From positions 1 to 49,752 of IMG/VR virus record IMGVR_UViG_3300009082_000025: a stretch of 49,752 nt of DNA, one strand, 5' to 3'. Source of the DNA: a virus. A model generated the notes under the pieces. It saw nothing but the letters and a program-made list of their open reading frames with translations. It did no database searches and was not told the origin of the DNA. Both the position numbers and the translations under genes were made by a program. This document shows, one piece after another, positions 10,892 through 32,268 of this stretch. Position 1 is the first letter of the stretch; the number at the start of each line of letters is the position of its first letter.

Positions 10892-13800
10892 ATGGAGACT
10901 GAGAATCAAGACATGGAGAAGCGGCTGGCGGACACCATCACGGCCACTTACCCTTCATTTGCCTTCCCTCACGATGCCGATTCGATGAAGCGTCTGTCAA
11001 GAAGCCTCCCAGGAGAGAAGGTGAAGAAGGCAGTGCTGGAAGACGGTTCTGGGAAGCGGTACTTCTTCAAGCCCACAACGGTACACAAAGCCTTGGGATG
11101 TATTGCGGCTTCCAATCTAGCGAAAGTGGTGGGGCGGCCGATTCCGCTTCATCGAATCGGCTTCTATGGGAAGCTGTTTGGGACCTTCCGAAACTGGGTT
11201 GAGGGGAAGACCTTGTCGGAGGAAGGGAAGAGAGTCGTTGCGCTTGCGAGGCCCGACCTGCTGGACATCCAGAAGCAACAGTGCTTCAACTACCTCGTGT
11301 CGTTCCCGGACTTGTGGATGAGGAACATCATCCGTGGGAATAACGGGAAGCTGTATTACATCGACTATGAGGGAGAGACATTCAATCTGTATGGGGAAGA
11401 CGACTTCCTCATCGACCCTGAACTCACCCCCAGCGTGTACACGTTCAACAGCTACCAGATCATCTATCGTTCCATCGCCAGCGGGCGTTTGTTTGAGTAC
11501 GCCACTTGGGAGGAACTGGAAGGGGACGTAGCGAAGATCGCTGGTATCAGTGATTCCAAACTGGAAGAGTTTGTCGGGCCATACATCGATGCGTCGCTAC
11601 AGAAGTTGGACGCCAAACGCCCTCCGTGGAAGCTCCGGTACAGCGGGCCGGAGCTGATGAAGGCAATCAAGTCCCGGCGCGATTCCATCGAGAAGACCAT
11701 CAGGACTCTGTACGAGCGTCTGGAAGATGAACGCAAAAAGGCCATCAAGAAGGGCGCCATCGGAACGGATGCGTTCACGGACGGGAAGAAGAACCCGGCG
11801 ATCCTGTCCACGAGTTTCATGGACTCGATGGAGCAGGAGACAATGCTGGTTCCGAAGATCCAGGAGTTCGAGCCGGAGGTCATTGAGAGTTGCGTGAAGG
11901 TTGAACTGTCGGCGGTCCTGTCCTCGCCGCGAGTCCTGCGCGGAGAGTCCGACGATCAGATCGGGAGCATCCATCTTCGGTTACACCAACTTTGGGATCT
12001 GGCGAATGCTGGGCGCTTGAGACTGACGCGACCGGAGTTCCTGAAGGTCCACGCGTTGGTAGTGGCGGAGATGGAGCGCCGTGGGATTGATCACAACGCT
12101 CACGATGAGCTGGATCAGGCTTCGCTTCGCTCGAAGACGCGGAAGTTCATGGGCGAGCAGAGTCCGTACAACGTGGACTACTACAATGGTTTGTCGGACA
12201 TCGACAGGCTCTTTGCCTCCGACTTCGCACGAGTGTCGGAGCAGTTCCCGGAAGTGGCGTTGGAGAACGTGCTGGAGATCGGATGTGGAACTGGTCGTGC
12301 GTTGAAAGTCCTGAAGGCGAGTGGAATCGAAGCCCAGGGCGTTGAGGTGTCCGACCACGCCGTGTCCGTCTGTCGCAACGCCGGGTTGGAGGCTTCCTTC
12401 GGGGACGCGGCTGACCTCCCATACAAGGAAGGCGCGTTTGACGTCACGTTCTCAATGGACGTTCTGGAGCATGTACAGGACTTCCAGAAGGCGCTGAACG
12501 AAGCTGTACGGGTCGCGGCGCGGAAGTCCATTCATCTCATCCCGCTTGGGATTCGTCGGGACGCGACGCACCGCCACACGTTCAAGACTTTGGACGACCT
12601 CCGCAAAGTCGTCTTGGATGCTGTACCAGGCCAAGCCATCGAGTTCCACCGGACGACTTCCAACAAGGCAGTCGTCGTCATCGACAAGGATCGCACAGAC
12701 ACGTCGCCAGTCACGGCGTACCTTCAGGACTTCACGATCATCCCCGGCTTCATGTCTCTGGTTGGCGGGACGGTGAAGCGTTCCGATCCGCGCGACATCG
12801 ACATCGTGTGGCGCGTTTCGGAGCCGATTCGTGGGATGGAGCTGGCTTTCAGGAACTTGCTACCGCCGGAGGTTCACGAGAAGGTACACCACATCTACAA
12901 CCCGTTCGGTCCTCACGATGATCACATCGAGCTGTTCGACCTCGTTGCCGTGAAGCGTCCGGCATTTCGCGTCGAACAGGTAGCCAAAGCCGCTCTCAAG
13001 CCGCTCAAGGCGTTCACGCCCCTCAAGACCGGAAGTGGCTACACCCAGCACGAGTTCTTCACGCCAGACGCTTTCTGGGAGATGTGGGCAAAGCCTTTCA
13101 TCGAGGAAGGGACGCGGCTCGCAGTCGAGATCAAGTACAACGGCTACAGGACCGTTGCGCAGAGTGACGGGAAGGGGACGCTGGTCTACTTTGAGGACAG
13201 CAAGAACGACCGCAGCGAACAGCTCGTGCCCATCGTCAACGACCTCAAGGCGATTGGAAAGCCCGTGATCCTCGACATGGACCTGGGGGCAACTTACGAA
13301 GACGGGACCGTTGTCCCGCGTGTCGAGCTGAGTGGGTTGATCTCTGAGAACACGAAAGTCGCTGAGGACGGGACCTTCACGACTCCCAGCGGGAAGAAGG
13401 CGTGGATTGTCGGTCGCGTCTTCCACATCTTGTATTTGGGGGACGAAGACCTACACACGCTTCCCTGGGAAGAGATGCGCAAGCGTCTCAGCCAGCTTTT
13501 CGCCGGTCACGACTTCAAGCACCTGAAGATCAGCCGTGCTAGGTTGGTGTCGTCCAAGGGCGACTTGATGGACGCCATCAAGAAGGCGAGCGCCGAACAG
13601 GGGAGCGAAGGCGCTGTCGTGAAGGTAGTCACGACTGACTACCCGTTGGACGGGAAGACAACAGGCTGGGCGAAGATCAAGAACCTCCTGGAGCTGAAAG
13701 TCGAGGTCATCGACCGGAAGCCGGTGAAGGATTCGCCCAAGACGTACAACTACTTCGTGGGGTACACCGACGAATCCGGGAAGCTACGGGAGATGGGAAA

Positions 13801-15289
13801 GACGTTCAACACGAACGTCGATGCGAAGCCAGGAGACATCCTGACGCTCAGTGCGGAGGAAGTCATCCCGCGCTACGATGAGGACGCGAAGACTTGGACC
13901 GTCACCACCGTCGTTCCCCGCGTGGAAGACCTCGAAACGGGAAGCATGAAGGCGGAAGGTGTGCGCTCGATCATCGAGCGGGCGTACAAGGCGAACGTCC
14001 TTCAGGCGAGCCCAGATGTGCTGGACCGGCTTCGCGCCGACAAGGTTGTGTCGAAGGGACTCGACATCGAGCTGTTCGACGTTCTGGTCAAGGCGGAAGG
14101 GACGTTGTCATTCCAGGAAGGTGACGAAGGGACAGGAATCCTACAGACTCATGAGCGCGGGTTGGAAGAGTTCCAGGTCAAGCTGACGCACGACTTCGGC
14201 TGGGACCCGGTCATGTTCACTCCGGCCCAGCTGGACCGCCTCAGCGAGATGGCCGGGAAGAACATCGCGCCCGCATACAAGGAAGCGCAGGACGGCCGAA
14301 GCGGCAACCTGTCCGACGCTTTGAAGGGCGCTGACCCGGAGTCTCTGTCGAAGCCCGATCAGGAACTGCTCGCTCTCGCGCGTCCGGTTTCCATTCACAC
14401 CGACTTCCGCATGCGTCCCGGCAAAGAAGACTACTGGGAAGGCGGCGAGGGTTTCACTCCTGGAAACCAGTTCCAGGGGAACAAGTTCAGACTCATGGCT
14501 GAAGGGAAGCTGCCTCCGGGTTCCAAGATCCTGATGAACTTCAAGACGGCCAGGGAAGATGAACTCAGCGATGTATCCAAGGCGGAAGTTCCGGTGCGTG
14601 GGCCGCTCGCATGGATGGGAATCGGTCGTGGCTCGCCCAAGGCGTTCCCGCCGGGCTCAGTCGGTTCGACTTCCGGCGCTTGGAGCCGGTTCTTCATCCG
14701 TGATCAGTTTGACTGGAAGGCCGGAGTCCAGGACAAGCACTACAAGGAGTTCGAGTTCAACGGGAGCGTTCTGGATGGTCGTTGGATCTTCCAGTTCGTG
14801 CCCGTAGGAATGGGAGGCCCTGCGCAAGCACAGGGACGTGCCTGGATGGTATCGAAGCCCGCCAAGCAGATCTTCGACAGTGAGGCTCTCAACAAGCGAC
14901 TCGCTGTGATCCTCCCGATTTTGAAGCGCAACGAGGAGCAGCGCATCGTCACGGCTGTCGTTCTCAAGCCCGACGCGACTGATGCGCAGGGTGACATCAT
15001 TTCCCCGCCGGTCATCGAGAAGGCTGCGTACAACTTCCTTTTGAACTATCGGCGCGGGAACACCGTTGGGTACATGCACAGGGACATGGGGCGGAACCTC
15101 CAAGTGGTAGAGTCCTACATCGCGCCGTCGCCGCTGACGATCAGCGGCCGACTGATCCCGGAAGGTTCTTGGGTCATGTCCGTGAAGGTGTTCGATGATG
15201 AGATCTGGAAGCGCGTCCTTGCGGGAGAGGTAACGGGGTTCAGCATCGGTGGGATGGCGAAGGTGTCGAAGCTGCCGGCTTCCTCCTGA
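10892..15289 (+). CDS. giant multidomain protein ending in an XkdF-type prohead protease
   Basis: 1465 residues, ATG 10892 with AGGAGGGC. Visible blocks in order: kinase-like (K60 in YFFKP, D140/N145 in DLWMRN, D158 in YIDYEG); helical linker; class I methyltransferase (VLEIGCGTG 460-468, SMDVLEH about 521); minimal nucleotidyltransferase (GGTVKRSDPRDID, D635/D637); ATP-dependent DNA ligase (motif I EIKYNGYR with K748, IV EGAVVK 906-911, V WAKIKN K928/K930) plus OB fold; a LigD 3'-phosphoesterase-like segment (HTDFRM, H1169; LDGRWIFQF); and an XkdF protease core (VLKPDATDAQGDII, H1396 in GYMHRD, S1451 in GFSIGG). It occupies the usual prohead-protease slot between MuF protein and scaffold. 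It may be a self-cleaved polyvalent protein packaged and injected; the kinase and phosphoesterase calls are the least certain. Confidence 0.75.
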   Translation: METENQDMEKRLADTITATYPSFAFPHDADSMKRLSRSLPGEKVKKAVLEDGSGKRYFFKPTTVHKALGCIAASNLAKVVGRPIPLHRIGFYGKLFGTFRNWVEGKTLSEEGKRVVALARPDLLDIQKQQCFNYLVSFPDLWMRNIIRGNNGKLYYIDYEGETFNLYGEDDFLIDPELTPSVYTFNSYQIIYRSIASGRLFEYATWEELEGDVAKIAGISDSKLEEFVGPYIDASLQKLDAKRPPWKLRYSGPELMKAIKSRRDSIEKTIRTLYERLEDERKKAIKKGAIGTDAFTDGKKNPAILSTSFMDSMEQETMLVPKIQEFEPEVIESCVKVELSAVLSSPRVLRGESDDQIGSIHLRLHQLWDLANAGRLRLTRPEFLKVHALVVAEMERRGIDHNAHDELDQASLRSKTRKFMGEQSPYNVDYYNGLSDIDRLFASDFARVSEQFPEVALENVLEIGCGTGRALKVLKASGIEAQGVEVSDHAVSVCRNAGLEASFGDAADLPYKEGAFDVTFSMDVLEHVQDFQKALNEAVRVAARKSIHLIPLGIRRDATHRHTFKTLDDLRKVVLDAVPGQAIEFHRTTSNKAVVVIDKDRTDTSPVTAYLQDFTIIPGFMSLVGGTVKRSDPRDIDIVWRVSEPIRGMELAFRNLLPPEVHEKVHHIYNPFGPHDDHIELFDLVAVKRPAFRVEQVAKAALKPLKAFTPLKTGSGYTQHEFFTPDAFWEMWAKPFIEEGTRLAVEIKYNGYRTVAQSDGKGTLVYFEDSKNDRSEQLVPIVNDLKAIGKPVILDMDLGATYEDGTVVPRVELSGLISENTKVAEDGTFTTPSGKKAWIVGRVFHILYLGDEDLHTLPWEEMRKRLSQLFAGHDFKHLKISRARLVSSKGDLMDAIKKASAEQGSEGAVVKVVTTDYPLDGKTTGWAKIKNLLELKVEVIDRKPVKDSPKTYNYFVGYTDESGKLREMGKTFNTNVDAKPGDILTLSAEEVIPRYDEDAKTWTVTTVVPRVEDLETGSMKAEGVRSIIERAYKANVLQASPDVLDRLRADKVVSKGLDIELFDVLVKAEGTLSFQEGDEGTGILQTHERGLEEFQVKLTHDFGWDPVMFTPAQLDRLSEMAGKNIAPAYKEAQDGRSGNLSDALKGADPESLSKPDQELLALARPVSIHTDFRMRPGKEDYWEGGEGFTPGNQFQGNKFRLMAEGKLPPGSKILMNFKTAREDELSDVSKAEVPVRGPLAWMGIGRGSPKAFPPGSVGSTSGAWSRFFIRDQFDWKAGVQDKHYKEFEFNGSVLDGRWIFQFVPVGMGGPAQAQGRAWMVSKPAKQIFDSEALNKRLAVILPILKRNEEQRIVTAVVLKPDATDAQGDIISPPVIEKAAYNFLLNYRRGNTVGYMHRDMGRNLQVVESYIAPSPLTISGRLIPEGSWVMSVKVFDDEIWKRVLAGEVTGFSIGGMAKVSKLPASS

Positions 15290-23906: not shown

Positions 23907-26189
23907 ATGGTGGCAAGAGTTTACGGTCCAGTGCGAGCGGCGGGCGTCCGGGTCGAAGAACTGGACACGGAGAAGCCCATCGCGGAAGCAGCCCTGGGCG
24001 TCACAGGCTACGTGGGCGCGCTGGAGAAGGGGCCCAAGAACAAGCTGATCTCCATGTACGGCAAGCGTGACTTCCAGCGGAAGTGCGGCGGGCGCATCGC
24101 GGAGTCGCTGTTGCCGGATGCGGTCCAGGACTTCTTCGACCACTCCGAAGGCGCGGGCGAGGTTCACCTCATCCGCACGACAGACGGGACGGACGTGGCG
24201 GCGGAACGCTACATCTACGCCCGACGCATGACGGCGGGTGGTGGGCGTTTCCCCATCGCCAAGATCAGCGCCGACAACGGCGGAAAGTGGGGCGGCTGGG
24301 CGAAGATCCTGGGGGACAACAGTCTCGCCATCGGTGCGTTCACCGCGACGACGCTCACCACGGGCAAGACGATGCTCCTGGATGAGTGGAAGGGCGGCTA
24401 CCTGAAGCTGGACTTCGTCACGTCCAAGGTCTACAAGGTCCTGGGGAACACGACGGCGGGCGTGATCACCATCGAGTCGGATCAGAACATGCTGACCGAC
24501 CTCGGCACGCCGCCTCCGGCCGACCTGGGCTACACGCTGTACCGCGAGAATCTGGGGAAGGCAGTCAGCATCGAGTTCGGCAACGACGACGCGGAGCCGC
24601 TGGACCGCTTCTGGATGAAGGTCTACGTGGACGGTTCGCCGGTGAAGGTCTACGAACGCCTGAGCGTGGACCCCACTGACGAACGGTACATGAAGAAGGT
24701 CATCGAAGACGACGATGACAACTGGGAGATCGACATCTCCTGGCTCTGGACCGGCGGTTCGCTGTCGGACATTCGGCCCGGCTTCTGCGGCTTCGTCAAC
24801 GCGCTCACGGCGACGGAGCTGACCGTCAATCCCTTCTTCTGGGCGACCACTTCCCCGACCAGTGCGAACCCGGTGGTGACGCTGGGGGCGCTGACCTCCC
24901 TGATGAAGTGGGAGGACACGATCACCGTGACGGTCGGCGTTCTCCCGGCGTTCACGGCGACCAGCGCCAAGTTCGGTTCTTTGGGACCGGCTGGGTCCAT
25001 CGGCGTGGCGTACACTCCCACCACGCCGTTCCTTCCGCCGTTCACCGTCACGAACGGCGCCACCCCGCTCGCGCCCGGCGATGTGGTGACGATCCAGTAC
25101 ACCCCCTTCGCCCCGGACGCGCTCAAGGGCGGGAAGCTGTACCCGAAGATCAGCACCCTCGACAAGGTGTTCCCGATCACCGGGAATACCGTGAACACGA
25201 TCACCGTCATCGGGGACATGACCGGTCTGGCGGTCGCCGGGGATGAGTGGATGGTGACGGCTCCGCAGGAGCTGATGGGCGGCTATGACGGGCTGTCCGC
25301 ACTGTCGGATGCGCACTTCCTCCCGGCGTTGGATCCGTCTCTGTCGTACTTCAACGACTTGCGCGGGCAGAACAAGGGGCTCGTGAAGCTGGCAGCGCCG
25401 GGGAAGACGAGCAGCGTGATCCAGAAGGCGGGGCTGGCGTTCGCGGAAGCCAACTCCTGGCAGTGGCGCATCGAAGTTCCCTACGCCACGATCACCGAAG
25501 ACGGGTGTCTGAACTTCGTCAACAACACGCTGGGGCGCAACGACTTCGGCGTGGTCTGCTTCCCGTCGTTCATCTACGTGGCAGACCCGGACAAGCCGGA
25601 CATCCTCAAGCTGATCTCCGAGACTGGAGCCATCCACGGCCGTGAGGCCAAGGTGGCGACGACATACCAGGGCTACCACCGCGCCGAAGCGGGCGTGGTC
25701 GCCACCCTCCCCCGGATCAAGAAGCTGCCGACGGCGGAACGGTTGGATGAGGAGCGTCTCAACCCGGCCGGCATCGCCGTGATCAAGAAGATCAAGGGCA
25801 ACTACATGGTCTGGGGCGACCGGACCATCTCGCTGGATCCGGGCTGGGCGTTCAAGCACCAGCGCGAGCAGATGTCGCACTACATCAACACGCTCCGCGA
25901 GCAGTTCGAGTGGGCGATCTTCGACATCAACGACGCGCTGAGCGACACGCCGATCATGACATCCCTGATGGCCTACTTCTACGCGGAGTACCAGCACAGG
26001 GCGCTCAACAACGACTACCCGTTCAAGGAGGCGTGTTCGATCAAGATGGACGGGTCCATCAACACCGTCCTCACGCGGACGGCGGGCGACAAGATCGCGG
26101 AGATCAAGCTGCGCCTCGCCAACGTGACGGAACGGCTCGTGCTCCGCATCGGGAAGGCGGGCGTGTTCGAGGCGGTGTTCAGCGGCTAG
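23907..26189 (+). CDS. contractile tail sheath protein
   Basis: 760 residues from ATG 23907 behind GGAGGGA. The N-terminal part (GVTGYVGALEKGPKN, then VHLIRTTDG) and the C-terminal domain (GNYMVWGDRTISLDPGW, REQFEWAIFDIND, ERLVLRIGKAG) are clear sheath signatures; subunits polymerise around the tube and shorten on infection to drive it through the envelope. The protein is longer than many sheaths; the excess is in the middle (about residues 300-450), which is rich in Pro/Thr beta strands and likely forms Ig-like surface domains. Followed by a hairpin gap and a 70-residue gene. Confidence 0.9.
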   Translation: MVARVYGPVRAAGVRVEELDTEKPIAEAALGVTGYVGALEKGPKNKLISMYGKRDFQRKCGGRIAESLLPDAVQDFFDHSEGAGEVHLIRTTDGTDVAAERYIYARRMTAGGGRFPIAKISADNGGKWGGWAKILGDNSLAIGAFTATTLTTGKTMLLDEWKGGYLKLDFVTSKVYKVLGNTTAGVITIESDQNMLTDLGTPPPADLGYTLYRENLGKAVSIEFGNDDAEPLDRFWMKVYVDGSPVKVYERLSVDPTDERYMKKVIEDDDDNWEIDISWLWTGGSLSDIRPGFCGFVNALTATELTVNPFFWATTSPTSANPVVTLGALTSLMKWEDTITVTVGVLPAFTATSAKFGSLGPAGSIGVAYTPTTPFLPPFTVTNGATPLAPGDVVTIQYTPFAPDALKGGKLYPKISTLDKVFPITGNTVNTITVIGDMTGLAVAGDEWMVTAPQELMGGYDGLSALSDAHFLPALDPSLSYFNDLRGQNKGLVKLAAPGKTSSVIQKAGLAFAEANSWQWRIEVPYATITEDGCLNFVNNTLGRNDFGVVCFPSFIYVADPDKPDILKLISETGAIHGREAKVATTYQGYHRAEAGVVATLPRIKKLPTAERLDEERLNPAGIAVIKKIKGNYMVWGDRTISLDPGWAFKHQREQMSHYINTLREQFEWAIFDINDALSDTPIMTSLMAYFYAEYQHRALNNDYPFKEACSIKMDGSINTVLTRTAGDKIAEIKLRLANVTERLVLRIGKAGVFEAVFSG

Positions 26190-26520: not shown

Positions 26521-27849
26521 ATGGTGATGTCGAGAGGTCATGCGGCAGGGTTCCCGCTTCCGAGCGATGCGCTGGATGGCGGAGGCGGACTGACGAAGGG
26601 TGGTTCCATCGAGGGCAAGGACGCCGTCACGCTGATGAACATCTTGTCCAACTGGATCAAGATCAGGGGCGTGGTCAATGTTCCGGGTGATCTTCCGACA
26701 AGCGGGATGGAGGACGGCGACCTGTACGCAGTGAAGGAAGCGGCGGGACCAGGGTCCGTTCCAGCGCTGTACATCTTCGATTTCGACACCACCACGTGGA
26801 AGAACGTGACCAACACCGGTCTGCCTGCGGCGCATCACGCGACGCATGAGAGCGGACCGGATGTGATCGACCTGTCCGTGATGCTCGCGGTTCCGGCGAT
26901 GATCCACCACGTGGACAGGAACTACACGGGGGCCGTGTCGAACGGTTCGCCACTGTTCCCGTTCAAGACGATCATGGCGGCCGTCACTGCCGTTGCTGCA
27001 ATCGGTGATCACGCGTACCACTCCATCAAGGTGGCGAGCGGGATCTACGCTGAGAACATCCTGCTCGAAAACCTGGGGTTGGAGTACGTCAAGATCGAAG
27101 GTGATGGGTACGTTTCCATCAATCCGGCCGCAGGGAACGCGCTCCAGTCCACGGCGAACAACGCCAACCTCAAGGCGCTCCTGCTCTCCAACGTCATCTT
27201 CGCAAAGCCGGTCGTCATCACGGGACCGGCTGGCGGGATGGGCTTCACCGACGTGATCTGGGACACGGTCAAGTTCACCGGAACCGCAACGCTGTCCGTG
27301 TCCTGCGTGAACAACTTCTCGATGATCAACCCGTACAGCGAGTGTGACGTGTCCTACGTGAACGTCAACTGGTCGTACATCGAGAGCGGCCAACTCCAGG
27401 GCAAGTTCGACTTCACTGCGGACGACACGTTGCCGATTCCGTCGGCAGGCAAGGACTGTACCACTCTCGTCAACGGCGTTTTCCAGAGCGGGAACGTCAC
27501 GTACACCATCGGTGGAACGGGAACTCAGACGGTCGCCGTCCAGGGATGTCGTTGGGGTTCCACCGCTGCGATCACGGTCCCGGCTGGTGTGTCAATCCTC
27601 GGGTACAACAGCTGGCTCCGGGGCACGCACACGAACAACGGGGCGATCACGCTTCGCAACGCGGCGACGGAAGGCTACATCGCCGGAGTGGGAACGCTGA
27701 CGATCACGGGCAACCCCGGCTCCCAGATCTACCTCGGAGGGACCGCGCCTGGCGACTGGGGCGGGCCGGGGGTTCCGGCCAACGTACAGGACGCGGTCAA
27801 CCGGCTTGCGGCACAACTCGCCATCGTTGGCGCAATGCCGATTCCGTAG
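26521..27849 (+). CDS. beta-helix fibre protein between sheath and tube
   Basis: 442 residues from ATG 26521 (AGGAGG upstream; ATG 26527 also possible). After an N-terminal linker containing VVNVPGDLP, a pectate-lyase-type beta-helix starts with FPFKTIMAAVTAV and continues in turns such as VKIEGDGYVSINP and LLLSNVIFAKPVVITG, ending near SQIYLGGTAP and a short helix (VQDAVNRLAAQLA). Three such beta-helix proteins occur in this window. A fibre gene between sheath and tube is unusual; it may be a collar or sheath-attached whisker that binds the host surface or host glycans. Confidence 0.6.
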   Translation: MVMSRGHAAGFPLPSDALDGGGGLTKGGSIEGKDAVTLMNILSNWIKIRGVVNVPGDLPTSGMEDGDLYAVKEAAGPGSVPALYIFDFDTTTWKNVTNTGLPAAHHATHESGPDVIDLSVMLAVPAMIHHVDRNYTGAVSNGSPLFPFKTIMAAVTAVAAIGDHAYHSIKVASGIYAENILLENLGLEYVKIEGDGYVSINPAAGNALQSTANNANLKALLLSNVIFAKPVVITGPAGGMGFTDVIWDTVKFTGTATLSVSCVNNFSMINPYSECDVSYVNVNWSYIESGQLQGKFDFTADDTLPIPSAGKDCTTLVNGVFQSGNVTYTIGGTGTQTVAVQGCRWGSTAAITVPAGVSILGYNSWLRGTHTNNGAITLRNAATEGYIAGVGTLTITGNPGSQIYLGGTAPGDWGGPGVPANVQDAVNRLAAQLAIVGAMPIP

Positions 27850-27879: not shown

Positions 27880-28320
27880 ATGAAGGGCGCAATCCGTCCC
27901 AATCACATCCCCAAGAACAAGGGGAAGCTCATCGTGGCCGGGCTCCCTCCGCTCACGCTGACGACCATCAGCGAGATCCCGGAGGAAGTGGAGAAGGTGG
28001 ACATCCCCGACCGTACCACCGCGAGTGGCGGGCAGAAGAAGGCGGTGGAGTTCACTGCCACTCTCCCGCTCCACCACGATGCGGAAGTGGCAGCGGTCGA
28101 ATCCTGGTTCGTCCAGGGACAGGACCCCGTTCACCCGCTGTACAAGAAGGTCGGAACGCTGGTGCAGGAACGCATCGGCTTCGGGCTCCCGAAGACCTAC
28201 ACCCTGATCGGACTCTGGATCAGCAAGCGCCAGATCCCGAACATGGAGATGGTCAACGAAGGCGAGATGCAGGAACTGGAGCTGACCTTCCAGGCGGACA
28301 ACGTCATCCCCGTGACCTAG
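27880..28320 (+). CDS. tail tube protein
   Basis: 146 residues from ATG 27880 after AAGGAGG. The sequence alternates strands around a single helix (PLHHDAEVAAVESWF) in the pattern of the small gp19-like tube subunits of contractile tails, with the closing strand pair MQELELTFQADNVIPV. Size is right for a tube subunit (about 140-170 residues). It lies between sheath and tail chaperone, the expected order, and is followed by a hairpin at 28347-28367. Sequence identity to any named tube cannot be judged by eye. Confidence 0.7.
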   Translation: MKGAIRPNHIPKNKGKLIVAGLPPLTLTTISEIPEEVEKVDIPDRTTASGGQKKAVEFTATLPLHHDAEVAAVESWFVQGQDPVHPLYKKVGTLVQERIGFGLPKTYTLIGLWISKRQIPNMEMVNEGEMQELELTFQADNVIPVT

Positions 28321-28382: not shown

Positions 28383-29198
28383 ATGAACAAGTTCTTCCAG
28401 ACCAAGACACTCAAGGAAAACGGACTGGCGCTTCCCATCGGCATCGTCGTCGGTGATCGACTCGACAAGACGCTGGAAGTTCTGCCGTACAAGCTCAAGC
28501 AGGAGCGCGAGCTGGCGAAGATCAAGCGGCCGGGGCTTCCGGTCGGTGAGTACGTCCAGACTGCACTCTCGCTTCTGGTTGGCCGTTTCGGACCGCACGA
28601 CTTCACGAAGATGGAGCCGGGCGAACGGAAACTGATCATCTCCCAGGCGTGGTTCTCCGACATCCTCTACGCCTACCTGTACGTCAGGTACAACTCGCTG
28701 GGGCCGGACTATCCCATCGAAGCAACGTGTGGCGCGTGCCGGACTCCGAACAGAGACATCGTGGGGGACCTTTCCACGGTCGAAGTCTCCGTGGTTTCGG
28801 ACCCCAAGACTGTGTACTGGGACGTGGACCTCCGTGACGGCGTGGTGATCATGGGAAAGCCGCGCAACAGGCTCCGGCTCCAGCCGCCTGTGTATGGGAT
28901 GCTCGACTTCAGTGCGGCCGTGGACGGTGAACTTCCGTTCCTCAACGTGCTTCGTTCCTGTCTTCTGTCGGTCGAAGGTGTCGAGGGACCGCCCGTGATC
29001 CTCGACAATGACGCCGATGAGATGTCGAAGTTCGACATCGAGAGCACTCAGCGAACCATCGAGGAACGAACGCCTGGCCCGAAGATGGTTGTGGAGTCGC
29101 GCTGTCGTCGCTGCAAGAGCGAGATGGTTGCCATGATCAACTGGGCGAGTGAGGGTTTTTTCTCGCTACCCTCCCGGCCCTTGACGAAGAGCAGCTGA
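28383..29198 (+). CDS. tail assembly chaperone, short (zero-frame) form, with zinc-ribbon cysteines
   Basis: 271 residues from ATG 28383 (GGAGGTAGG upstream). It stands between tube and tape measure, where phages encode the chaperone that coats the tape measure during tail assembly. Two CxxC pairs, C116/C119 (CGAC) and C241/C244 (CRRC), could form one zinc ribbon. Near its end the frame contains T TTT TTC at 29156-29162, a canonical -1 slippery heptamer in correct phase. Slippage there replaces the last 11 residues with 67 from the -1 frame, giving a longer second form as in lambda G/GT and P2 E/E'. Confidence 0.7.
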   Translation: MNKFFQTKTLKENGLALPIGIVVGDRLDKTLEVLPYKLKQERELAKIKRPGLPVGEYVQTALSLLVGRFGPHDFTKMEPGERKLIISQAWFSDILYAYLYVRYNSLGPDYPIEATCGACRTPNRDIVGDLSTVEVSVVSDPKTVYWDVDLRDGVVIMGKPRNRLRLQPPVYGMLDFSAAVDGELPFLNVLRSCLLSVEGVEGPPVILDNDADEMSKFDIESTQRTIEERTPGPKMVVESRCRRCKSEMVAMINWASEGFFSLPSRPLTKSS

Positions 29199-29365
29199 TG
29201 GACGAGGCGTTCCAGCTCGTGTACCAGACGCACACGACATTGGATGACGTCGAGAACATGGACCGTCGCTGGCGTCACGGGTTCCTGGAACGCATCGTCC
29301 GACAGCGCAACCTCGAAGCCAAGGAAGCAGAGGCCAGGAGGGCGGCGGGTAAGCGGAGGCGGTGA
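28383..29365 (+). CDS. tail assembly chaperone, -1 frameshift product
   Basis: Predicted 327-residue fusion. Zero-frame translation runs to TTC 29160-29162; after a -1 slip on TTTTTTC reading resumes at CTC 29162 (LATLPALDEEQLMDEAF) and ends at TGA 29363. The -1 frame is open for 67 codons with a protein-like helical, charged composition ending KRRR. A short AGCTG/CAGCT stem about 30 nt downstream could contribute to pausing. The distal part might also be made from its own ATG 29198 (separate entry). The join is two segments, 28383-29162 and 29162-29365. Confidence 0.6.
29156..29162 (+). promoter_or_regulatory. -1 ribosomal frameshift site TTTTTTC
   Basis: X XXY YYZ heptamer (T TTT TTC) in phase with the chaperone frame (codons GGT TTT TTC), 36 bp before its stop and leading into an open -1 frame of 67 codons directly upstream of the tape measure gene. 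Confidence 0.65.
29198..29365 (+). CDS. distal tail chaperone segment (frameshift extension or separate gene)
   Basis: A 55-codon frame beginning at ATG 29198, which overlaps the upstream stop (TGATG), and ending just before the tape measure start. The product is a charged helical protein (DDVENMDRRWRHGFLERIV, ending AAGKRRR). It can be reached either by re-initiation at the ATG or, together with 12 codons upstream, by the -1 slip. The conserved arrangement in other tails favours the slip. In both cases the protein probably contacts the tape measure during assembly. Confidence 0.55.
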   Translation: MDEAFQLVYQTHTTLDDVENMDRRWRHGFLERIVRQRNLEAKEAEARRAAGKRRR

Positions 29366-29370
29366 CCCCG

Positions 29371-32268
29371 ATGGCGTTCGAACAGATTGGTCTTGGCGGA
29401 ATCCTGACCTTCAACGACGCCCAAGCCTTGTCCGCAATGAACAGGGCTTCCATCGGTGTCAAGTCGCTCCAGGCGAACATGGTTCGCTTGAGAGCTTCTG
29501 TGGCGACAGTCGGGGCCGGGTTCAACACGCTGTTCATGGCGGCGTTACCGCTCGCTGCGGCGATTGGATGGGGAGCGAAACAAGCGTACAACTTTGAGGC
29601 CCAGATGTCCGTTGTGTCCGCCATTACCCAGGCGAACGCGGAAGACATGACGCGACTCGCGGATAAGGCAAAGGCTCTGGGAATCTCGACAGTGTACTCC
29701 GCCACCCAGGCGGCACAGGGGCTTGAGGTTCTCGGTCGCGCCGGGTTCGGTGTGGAGGGTTCACTCAAAGCAATCACCGGTGTACTTGCGGCGGCTGCGG
29801 CTGAAGGGATTGGGATGGCGGAGTCAGCCGACATCATCGCCAACACCCTTCGTGGGATGAATCTCCAGTTCGAGGATTCACAGCGGGTCGCGGACGTTCT
29901 TGCTCTCACGTCGATGTCCACGAACACCAACATCTCAATGTTGGGAGAGTCCTTCAGCTACGCGGCGACGATGGCGGCGACCTCCGGCGTGCCGCTGGAG
30001 GAGCTGTCCGCCGCGTTCGGCTTGATCGCCAACACGGGAATCCAGGCGAGCCGTGGTGGAACATCGATGGAAGCCTTCATGAAGGGGCTCCTGACGATGA
30101 CGCCCCGTGCTGCAAGTGCGGCCCAGGAACTGGGGGTCAGCTTCCGCGATGACGCCGGGGCACTGCTCCCCCTTCCAGACATCATTGACAACTTGTCAGC
30201 GGCGCTGGAAGGGGTCGAAGACCCGGTGAGGCGCGACCAGCTTCTGTTCCGACTGTTCAGGGATCAGGGCTCCCGTGCTTTCAAGGCGCTCCAAATGCAG
30301 GGAACGCCCGCTCTGCGTGAACTCATCGCCAGCCTGGAAGACGCCGGGGGGATGACCGATCAGTTCGGTCAGCGTGTCGGCGCTGCCCAAGCGATGGCTT
30401 CGCGCCGTCTGGACAATCTCCAGGGTGCGATGATCCTCTTGAAGTCGTCACTGGAAGGGATCGGAATCGCGTTGTTCACCAGCTTCCTCCGGCCGATGAT
30501 GGAAGCTACCATCAGGGGCGTGAACTCTCTCAACAGCTTCCTTACAACGCTGAACTCGTTGAACAGCGACCCGTCGTTGGAGAATGTGACGGCCTTGACG
30601 GGCCAGTACGGGGAGACTACGGTTGAGATGGCACTGGGAGTCCGCGAAGGGCTCCAGACCGTGAAGAACACCTGGTCAACTGTGAAGGGCGCGGTTCGTG
30701 AAGCGGCAGAATGGATTGGGATGGCGTTCGGGGAAGCCAGCGCCCGCGATGTAATGAAGTGGGTGACGGCAATCGGGCTCTTGATTCCGGCGGTCATGGC
30801 TCTGGGAGCCGCGCTGAAGATGCTGACGTTTGTCGGTGGGGGCGTCGTCCAGATCATCTCTGGGTCGGCCGGAATCATCGCTGCGCTGGTATCAATGCTT
30901 CCGATGCTCGCTGTGGTAGGCACAGCAGCTGGACTTGCGTTCCTTCTCATCCGCAACGACGGGGAAGCGGTCGGACAGACGTTGACTCGCATCATCGAAG
31001 GGGTGAAGCAGTTCGCCCTCGATGCGTACAGCTTCATGTCGGCGGTTCTGGGGCCAATCATACAGGCGTTCGCTGGAATATTCCTGAACAACGTCATCCC
31101 TGTCTTCGCTCAGTTCCGCGAGTTTGCCCGGATGGTATTCGGGGACATCGCGTCTTTCATCAGCGCTGTTACACTCGGTTCGCTCCCGCAGTGGCAGGTG
31201 TTTTCCAACGCGGTCGCCGGAGTCATCCGACAGATTGGCTACGTCTTCGCACAGACGTTCGGCGGCATCATCTCCATTGCGTCGGCTGTTTGGGGGTTCA
31301 TAGTGAACATGGTATCCCAGATGCGACCCGGCTTCGAGTCGCTCATGGGAATCATCTCCAGCTTCATGGGCTACATCGGGACCGTGTTTCAGTTCGTAGG
31401 CCAGGTGGTAGGATTCGTTGCTCAGGCGGTTGTATGGTTGATCAACGAGTTCTCCTGGCTAGGGGAGGTCATAGCAACGGTTTTCAACGGCGCGATGGAG
31501 ATTCTCAGGCCGATCTTCGACATTCTGTATGCAATCGGGTCCACGGCTTTGCGATTCATCTGGAATGTCCTTCAGGGAATCTGGGCGGTTCTACAGCCAA
31601 TCTTCAGCATCATCAGCTTCATCGGTAAGACGGTCTGGGAGCTGTTGAAGCCCGCGTTCGAGGCGGTCAAAGTCGTTGTCGTAGCGATCTTCGACGCGCT
31701 GAAATGGATCTACGACAATGCGATTTCACCGCTCATCGATGCGGTTGGCGGGGCGCTGAGAGCCGCGTTCGAGGCCATCGGCTTTGTGATCAACGGGATC
31801 AAGTCGGCGCTGGAGTGGATTGTTGACAAGATCAAGTGGGTAGCGGACAAGGTCGCCAGTATTCTGGGAGGGATGGGAGTCGCTCGTGACCAGATCAACC
31901 GGATGATGAATGTGGCACAAACGTCGGACCAACTGTCACAGGGGACAAGAGCCTACGCTTACACTGATCCGTTGGCCTCTGCGTCTTCCAGACAGATGGG
32001 TGCACCGTACCTCGCCCAAGCGGCTGCTTCGGCTGGGGCGGCGCGAGCCGGAGCGACGACGCCACCGCAGCCGGGCGACATGACGGCTACGATCAACGAC
32101 AACCGGACGATGGACATCACGACGAATGCAAACATCGACGGACGCTGCGTCTCAAGTGCCGTTGCCCGGAACCAGCGTGAGGTTCGTGAGCGGGCCGGGT
32201 TTGAGGATACGCCGTGGCAACGGCGAGCGGCCGTGGTGCGCAACCAGGACCTGGTCCCGGCAGCGTAG
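29371..32268 (+). CDS. tail tape measure protein
   Basis: 965 residues from ATG 29371, which is correctly spaced from GGAGG at 29355-29359; GTG 29362 is too close to that site. The N-terminal 400 residues contain the TP901-type tape-measure core (YNFEAQMSVVSAITQ, ALGISTVYSATQAAQGLEVL, FGLIANTGIQASRGGTSM). The middle and C-terminal parts hold many hydrophobic segments (for example IGLLIPAVMALGAALKMLTF) likely to insert in the host membrane and help DNA entry. At roughly 0.15 nm per residue the tail would be about 140-150 nm long, which is an estimate from the general rule. It ends with a segment of Ala/Gly/Thr linkers. Confidence 0.9.
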   Translation: MAFEQIGLGGILTFNDAQALSAMNRASIGVKSLQANMVRLRASVATVGAGFNTLFMAALPLAAAIGWGAKQAYNFEAQMSVVSAITQANAEDMTRLADKAKALGISTVYSATQAAQGLEVLGRAGFGVEGSLKAITGVLAAAAAEGIGMAESADIIANTLRGMNLQFEDSQRVADVLALTSMSTNTNISMLGESFSYAATMAATSGVPLEELSAAFGLIANTGIQASRGGTSMEAFMKGLLTMTPRAASAAQELGVSFRDDAGALLPLPDIIDNLSAALEGVEDPVRRDQLLFRLFRDQGSRAFKALQMQGTPALRELIASLEDAGGMTDQFGQRVGAAQAMASRRLDNLQGAMILLKSSLEGIGIALFTSFLRPMMEATIRGVNSLNSFLTTLNSLNSDPSLENVTALTGQYGETTVEMALGVREGLQTVKNTWSTVKGAVREAAEWIGMAFGEASARDVMKWVTAIGLLIPAVMALGAALKMLTFVGGGVVQIISGSAGIIAALVSMLPMLAVVGTAAGLAFLLIRNDGEAVGQTLTRIIEGVKQFALDAYSFMSAVLGPIIQAFAGIFLNNVIPVFAQFREFARMVFGDIASFISAVTLGSLPQWQVFSNAVAGVIRQIGYVFAQTFGGIISIASAVWGFIVNMVSQMRPGFESLMGIISSFMGYIGTVFQFVGQVVGFVAQAVVWLINEFSWLGEVIATVFNGAMEILRPIFDILYAIGSTALRFIWNVLQGIWAVLQPIFSIISFIGKTVWELLKPAFEAVKVVVVAIFDALKWIYDNAISPLIDAVGGALRAAFEAIGFVINGIKSALEWIVDKIKWVADKVASILGGMGVARDQINRMMNVAQTSDQLSQGTRAYAYTDPLASASSRQMGAPYLAQAAASAGAARAGATTPPQPGDMTATINDNRTMDITTNANIDGRCVSSAVARNQREVRERAGFEDTPWQRRAAVVRNQDLVPAA

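Follow-up and report, generated by a model that had tools for sequence, protein, structure and literature searches.

The gene directly upstream of the tape-measure gene of this virus ends in a stop codon, beyond which the -1 frame stays open as far as the tape measure, and the question is whether this locus encodes one tail-assembly chaperone or two. The earlier note on the window (the whole stretch of DNA analysed, a virus record of 49,752 bp with a GC content of 60%) proposed a programmed -1 frameshift in the chaperone gene. Our comparisons strongly support this proposal: the heptamer recurs in the nearest relative found, in 80 of 80 cyanophage gp26 genes, and in several T4-like phages, and the -1 extension is homologous to a gp51-type domain. 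Judged from sequence, the gene would make a short and a long chaperone by -1 slippage at TTTTTTC, a reading to which we assign a probability of roughly 0.88 (Table 1).

Table 1. Features of the chaperone locus and the neighbouring tail genes (positions in the window).
Feature	Position	Strand	Basis or remark
Tail sheath, 760 aa, contractile tail	23907..26189	+	phrog_23 E 5e-18
Putative tail-tube gene, directly upstream of chaperone	27880..28320	+	Position only; sheath-tube-TAC-TMP order as in BRock
Short tail-assembly chaperone (TAC-N), T4 gp26-like, P0001, 271 aa	28383..29198	+	Profile, tblastn, and hhalign matches
Predicted long chaperone (TAC-NC), 327-aa -1 frameshift fusion	28383..29365	+	Inferred from heptamer and conserved extension
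First CxxC, C116-C119	28728..28739	+	Invariant in five divergent family members
Second CxxC, C241-C244	29103..29114	+	Invariant in five divergent family members
G GGT TTT, in-phase heptamer overlapping T TTT TTC; possible second slip position	29153..29159	+	Also in relative L119
Slippery heptamer T TTT TTC	29156..29162	+	In X XXY YYZ phase; context GAG GGT TTT TTC TCG
-1 frame C-terminal domain (TAC-C, gp51-type), 67 codons + stop	29162..29365	+	Extension HMM match
TGATG, zero-frame stop overlapping in-frame ATG (29198) of -1 ORF; possible reinitiation	29196..29200	+	TGATGG in L119
Possible separately initiated distal protein P0002, 55 aa	29198..29365	+	Open frame only
Tape-measure protein, directly downstream of chaperone	29362..32268	+	TIGR01760 E 3.7e-52; phrog_1272 E 1.9e-68

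The tail genes are ordered sheath, tube, chaperone, and tape measure, with the chaperone gene between the tape measure and the putative tube gene, for which profile searches gave no family match of its own. Reading the codons of the short ORF in the zero frame bears out that T TTT TTC lies in phase. The heptamer is followed by 33 nt and then the TGA stop (29196-29198), so that the 36 bp reported earlier holds with the stop counted. The -1 frame is indeed open for 67 codons, from 29162 to a TGA at 29363-29365, and it ends as described directly before the tape measure, whose GTG start at 29362 this TGA overlaps; the fusion accordingly has the 327 residues first calculated (258 + 2 + 67). TTTTTTC, like any six-T run, occurs once in the window when both strands are counted. 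Across the listed genes of the window, Phe is encoded 447 times by TTC (88%) and 59 times by TTT, and 13 of the 14 Phe-Phe pairs are TTCTTC, with TTTTTC found only at the heptamer. Several other gene ends in the window also run into long open -1 frames. Openness alone was therefore rejected as evidence, and the case for frameshifting rests on conservation and homology.

The short product matched phrog_150, "baseplate hub" (E 1.8e-5), in a profile search and, weakly and below the gathering score, PF12322, T4_baseplate (E 0.0088). By tblastn it matched Streptomyces phage BRock (6e-5; identity about 25%), from which a chain of matches leads via Streptococcus phage GXN1 to KVP40 gp26, and hhalign of the window protein and its nearest relative against a profile of KVP40/cyanophage gp26 gave an E-value of 3.7e-6. 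Taken together, these matches assign the window protein to the T4 gp26 family. The gene had earlier been placed with lambda G/GT and P2 E/E', which is not borne out: no lambda G or P2 E family match was found in Pfam, PHROGs, or NCBIfam, and the heptamer differs from that of lambda, GGGAAAG. By its sequence matches, the protein is a member of the T4 gp26/gp51 family (PF12322/phrog_150), not of lambda G or P2 E.

Two CxxC pairs had been described in the short form as unusual for its family. They are present (C116/C119 and C241/C244) but not odd, because several divergent relatives share them; these zinc-ribbon-like pairs are missing from many cyanophage members and are thus typical of the family, not defining. 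The AlphaFold model of the protein is poor (mean pLDDT 55.7) and reaches about 80-90 only around the two CxxC hairpins. The Phe-Phe at which the frames part (F258/F259) occupies columns that are at least 90% invariant in 25 family sequences.

Scanning IMG/VR directly with the window chaperone or tape measure returned no relatives, a search of a plasmid collection gave no match, and bacterial genomes yielded a single distant match. The nearest relative found, L119 (record G001), was reached via a terminase match in IMG/VR, and the window clade comprises these two sequences. The L119 chaperone is 53% identical to that of the window, and its gene has AGTGAGGGTTTTTTCTC exactly as in the window, together with a homologous -1 extension, TGATGG, and G GGT TTT. 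In the 36 nt in which the two frames overlap, the two sequences differ at 14 sites, which are biased to neither frame.

Beyond this clade, an in-phase T TTT TTC followed by a -1 extension is found in KVP40, Bellamy, Atu_ph07, LR756511, Aeh1, S13, ZPAH1, BUCT608, P-SSM4, and S-H34, and vB_VmeM-32 has T TTT TTT at the slip position. In Aeh1, VmeM-32, S13, and ZPAH1 (L100, L101, L102, and L105), an unannotated gap after gp26 holds a -1 extension of the gp51 type. The gp26-like gene of Vibrio phage Kuja (Ackermannviridae; L104, 1180-1932) also has a -1 gp51-like extension, and the sequence there is AAC CTT TTT CAA TAA. The Kuja extension is thus kept with CTT TTT C and no canonical heptamer, which counts against the frameshift reading.

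The slippery site is conserved beyond what the protein demands, and the strong test of this comes from the cyanophages, the window having one close relative only. T TTT TTC is in phase in 80 of 80 cyanophage gp26 loci from IMG/VR, and Phe-Phe is TTT TTC in every one of these genes, although TTC is less common than TTT at most of their other Phe positions. The codon preceding Phe-Phe is TCT (41), AGT (37), or GGT (2) and always ends in T, compared with 61% for Ser codons located upstream in the same genes. By parsimony on the cyanophage tree, the first base of this preceding codon changed at least 12 times and its third base never; both Phe codons show no change, against an average of 16.4 third-position changes in conserved columns. 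The lack of any synonymous change at the heptamer shows a constraint on the nucleotides and not on the protein. Cyanophages also have a conserved SD-like element, GAG-GGN or GAA-GGG, located some 9 nt 5' of the heptamer. It covaries (18/20 versus 6/60; Fisher 6e-11, phylogeny uncorrected) and is similar to the internal Shine-Dalgarno of E. coli dnaX, a stimulator of -1 slippage. In the window, there is no SD-like element at this spacing upstream of the heptamer and no stable RNA structure downstream of it (z +0.94).

The distal segment was compared with an HMM of the extensions of other phages, with the window and L119 left out. Searched against 1303 ORFs, this HMM ranked L119 first (1e-8) and the -1 ORF of the window second (4.6e-6), both aligned from Phe-Phe onward. 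An HMM of cyanophage extensions only also matches the C-terminus of T4 gp51 (1.5e-3), and the annotation of the downstream ORF in KVP40 notes a similarity to the last 40 residues of T4 gp51. By homology, the distal segment is a gp51-type C-terminal domain. Genes 26 and 51 of T4 are encoded on opposite strands and have paralogous products (BLASTP 2e-6; hhalign of gp51 against the gp26 profile 1.5e-6), of which gp51 carries a gp26-like part and the extension in one protein. In T4, RB49-like, and EC-F2 phages, gp26 has neither the heptamer nor the extension. These phages encode gp51 separately, so a dedicated gene for the long form goes with the absence of the slip site, and their sequences serve as a natural control for the heptamer.

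A second, large clade of the family has the extension in the +1 frame; it includes Mel-JY01, immuto, SP-15, LIS04, GXN1, LR756508, and the BRock group. We collected 80 IMG/VR loci of the Mel-JY01/immuto type (L120-L199; e.g., L131, 1501-2340 and downstream), one of which was unusable, and the +1 extension is open from Phe-Phe in 78 of the remaining 79. The site, TTT TTT TGG CCT or a close variant, is nearly invariant and has the same Phe-Phe position; in the BRock group, the exact slip site is less clear than in other +1 members. Most of these loci (69/78) have no ATG, GTG, or TTG between the slip site and the core, so frameshifting seems to be the only route to the extension there. Some members of the set have TTT CTT TGG, reminiscent of the prfB +1 site. 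One locus (L163) is the sole one of the 79 with a -1 extension, which it combines with TTC TTC TGG; this may reflect a genuine switch of direction or a faulty assembly. One conserved Phe-Phe is probably the recoding site in most gp26-family lineages outside T4's group, with a -1 shift in the window phage, T4-like phages, and cyanophages and a +1 shift in the second clade. With the site shared and the direction differing, the long chaperone would have persisted through a switch in recoding direction or, in T4, through a gene duplication that gave rise to 26 and 51.

The sequences show the site with its phase and conservation and, for both segments, homology; slippage itself, its rate, and its role in assembly are inferred as follows. 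Most ribosomes would produce the short T4 gp26-family chaperone of 271 aa, and a minority would slip one base back at T TTT TTC, with two tRNA-Phe re-pairing on TTT/TTT instead of TTT/TTC, and produce the 327-aa form with the gp51-type C-terminal domain. If the roles follow those in lambda G/GT, the short form may coat the tape measure and the extra domain of the long form may recruit tube protein, and neither form would stay in the virion.

The start codon at the end of the short ORF could offer a second route to the distal domain. It had been observed before that the -1 extension has its own start at TGATG, and the ATG at 29198 does lie in the -1 frame, with TGATG conserved in L119. Frameshifting to the 327-aa form may be complemented by reinitiation that adds a free 55-aa domain as a third product, which would refine the preferred explanation and does not exclude it. 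We consider this possible but doubtful: heptamer and TGATG are each conserved in the window and L119, but that clade is two sequences only, and no role is known for a C-terminal domain on its own.

It is improbable that the heptamer is incidental and that termination-reinitiation at TGATG, yielding a separate 55-aa protein, is the sole source of the distal domain. Such a route would fit the overlap of the ATG with the stop, the TGATGG kept in L119, the separate gp51 annotated in KVP40, Bellamy, P-SSM4, and others, and the in-frame ATG before the core in 78 of 80 cyanophage loci. However, it cannot explain why 80 cyanophage genes show no synonymous change at the heptamer, and the -1 homology of LR756511 starts well upstream of the first ATG. 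The +1 loci without any of the three start codons from slip site to core, and T4 gp51, in which the gp26-like part and the extension are one protein, argue against it as well.

Slippage of RNA polymerase on the T run, yielding mRNAs of different length that encode the two proteins, is very unlikely: the run is a homopolymer, but six T are short for transcriptional slippage, 80 of 80 cyanophage loci keep the phase and the final C, neither of which a slipping polymerase would need, and some +1 relatives with TTT CTT TGG have no long run. We give next to no weight to a chance choice of codons at a Phe-Phe that is conserved at this place family-wide, given the prevalence of TTCTTC at the Phe-Phe pairs of the window and the identical site in a homologue of 53% identity and in distant families.

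Translational -1 slippage at this locus has precedents. Vladimirov, Gautam, and Davidson (Virology 2022, 566:9-15) reportedly identified the T4-like chaperones as the products of T4 genes 26 and 51, with frameshifting in other T4-like groups. Since chaperone frameshifting in T4-like phages was thus published in 2022, the central result is known, and the window is a further member. A passage of PMC12846349 cites Vladimirov et al. 2022 for poly-T slip sites in the TAC genes of T4-like phages; a 2016 review (PMC5009743) described the tail chaperone frameshift as conserved in long-tailed phages "except T4". The TAC of Vandenendeviridae/Andersonviridae, contractile phages such as Adele, has a -1 frameshift at the poly-T motif GTTTTT before the tape measure (PMC12846349), and the window resembles it in its -1 site at poly-T in this place, a likeness drawn from the published description.

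The window shares the profile family, the position ahead of the tape-measure gene, and the homologous C-terminal domain with T4-like gp26/gp51 chaperones and the T TTT TTC -1 site with KVP40, Aeh1, and cyanophages. It differs from T4-like systems in overlapping G GGT TTT with T TTT TTC, and its phage lies outside the named T4-like groups, with the identities to L119 and BRock given above. T4, in contrast, has split the two forms into two genes on opposite strands. The +1-recoded genes are alike in family, Phe-Phe position, and homologous extension, but theirs is a +1 frame at TTT TTT TGG CCT or TTT CTT TGG, usually with no start codon. These comparisons correct the annotation of a split gene, whose phage joins those with a T4 gp26/gp51-type chaperone. 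They add strong codon-level evidence for frameshifting at gp26 in T4-like relatives and for a correspondence of the two hub-assembly chaperones of T4 to the short and the long form. The limited literature searched contained no report of the +1 clade, which is possibly new; if confirmed, it is a natural series for a change of recoding direction with the product kept.

Two other ORFs of the window stand out. Between the sheath and the putative tube gene is a 442-aa ORF (26521-27849, +) without a Pfam match, where L119 has a shorter ORF of 235 aa. Near the capsid genes, a 1465-aa ORF (10892-15289, +) combines three domains in one reading frame: a methyltransferase (461-545, E 1.2e-16), an ATP-dependent DNA ligase (740-930, E 2.6e-14), and an XkdF-type S78 protease (1343-1458, E 4.7e-30).
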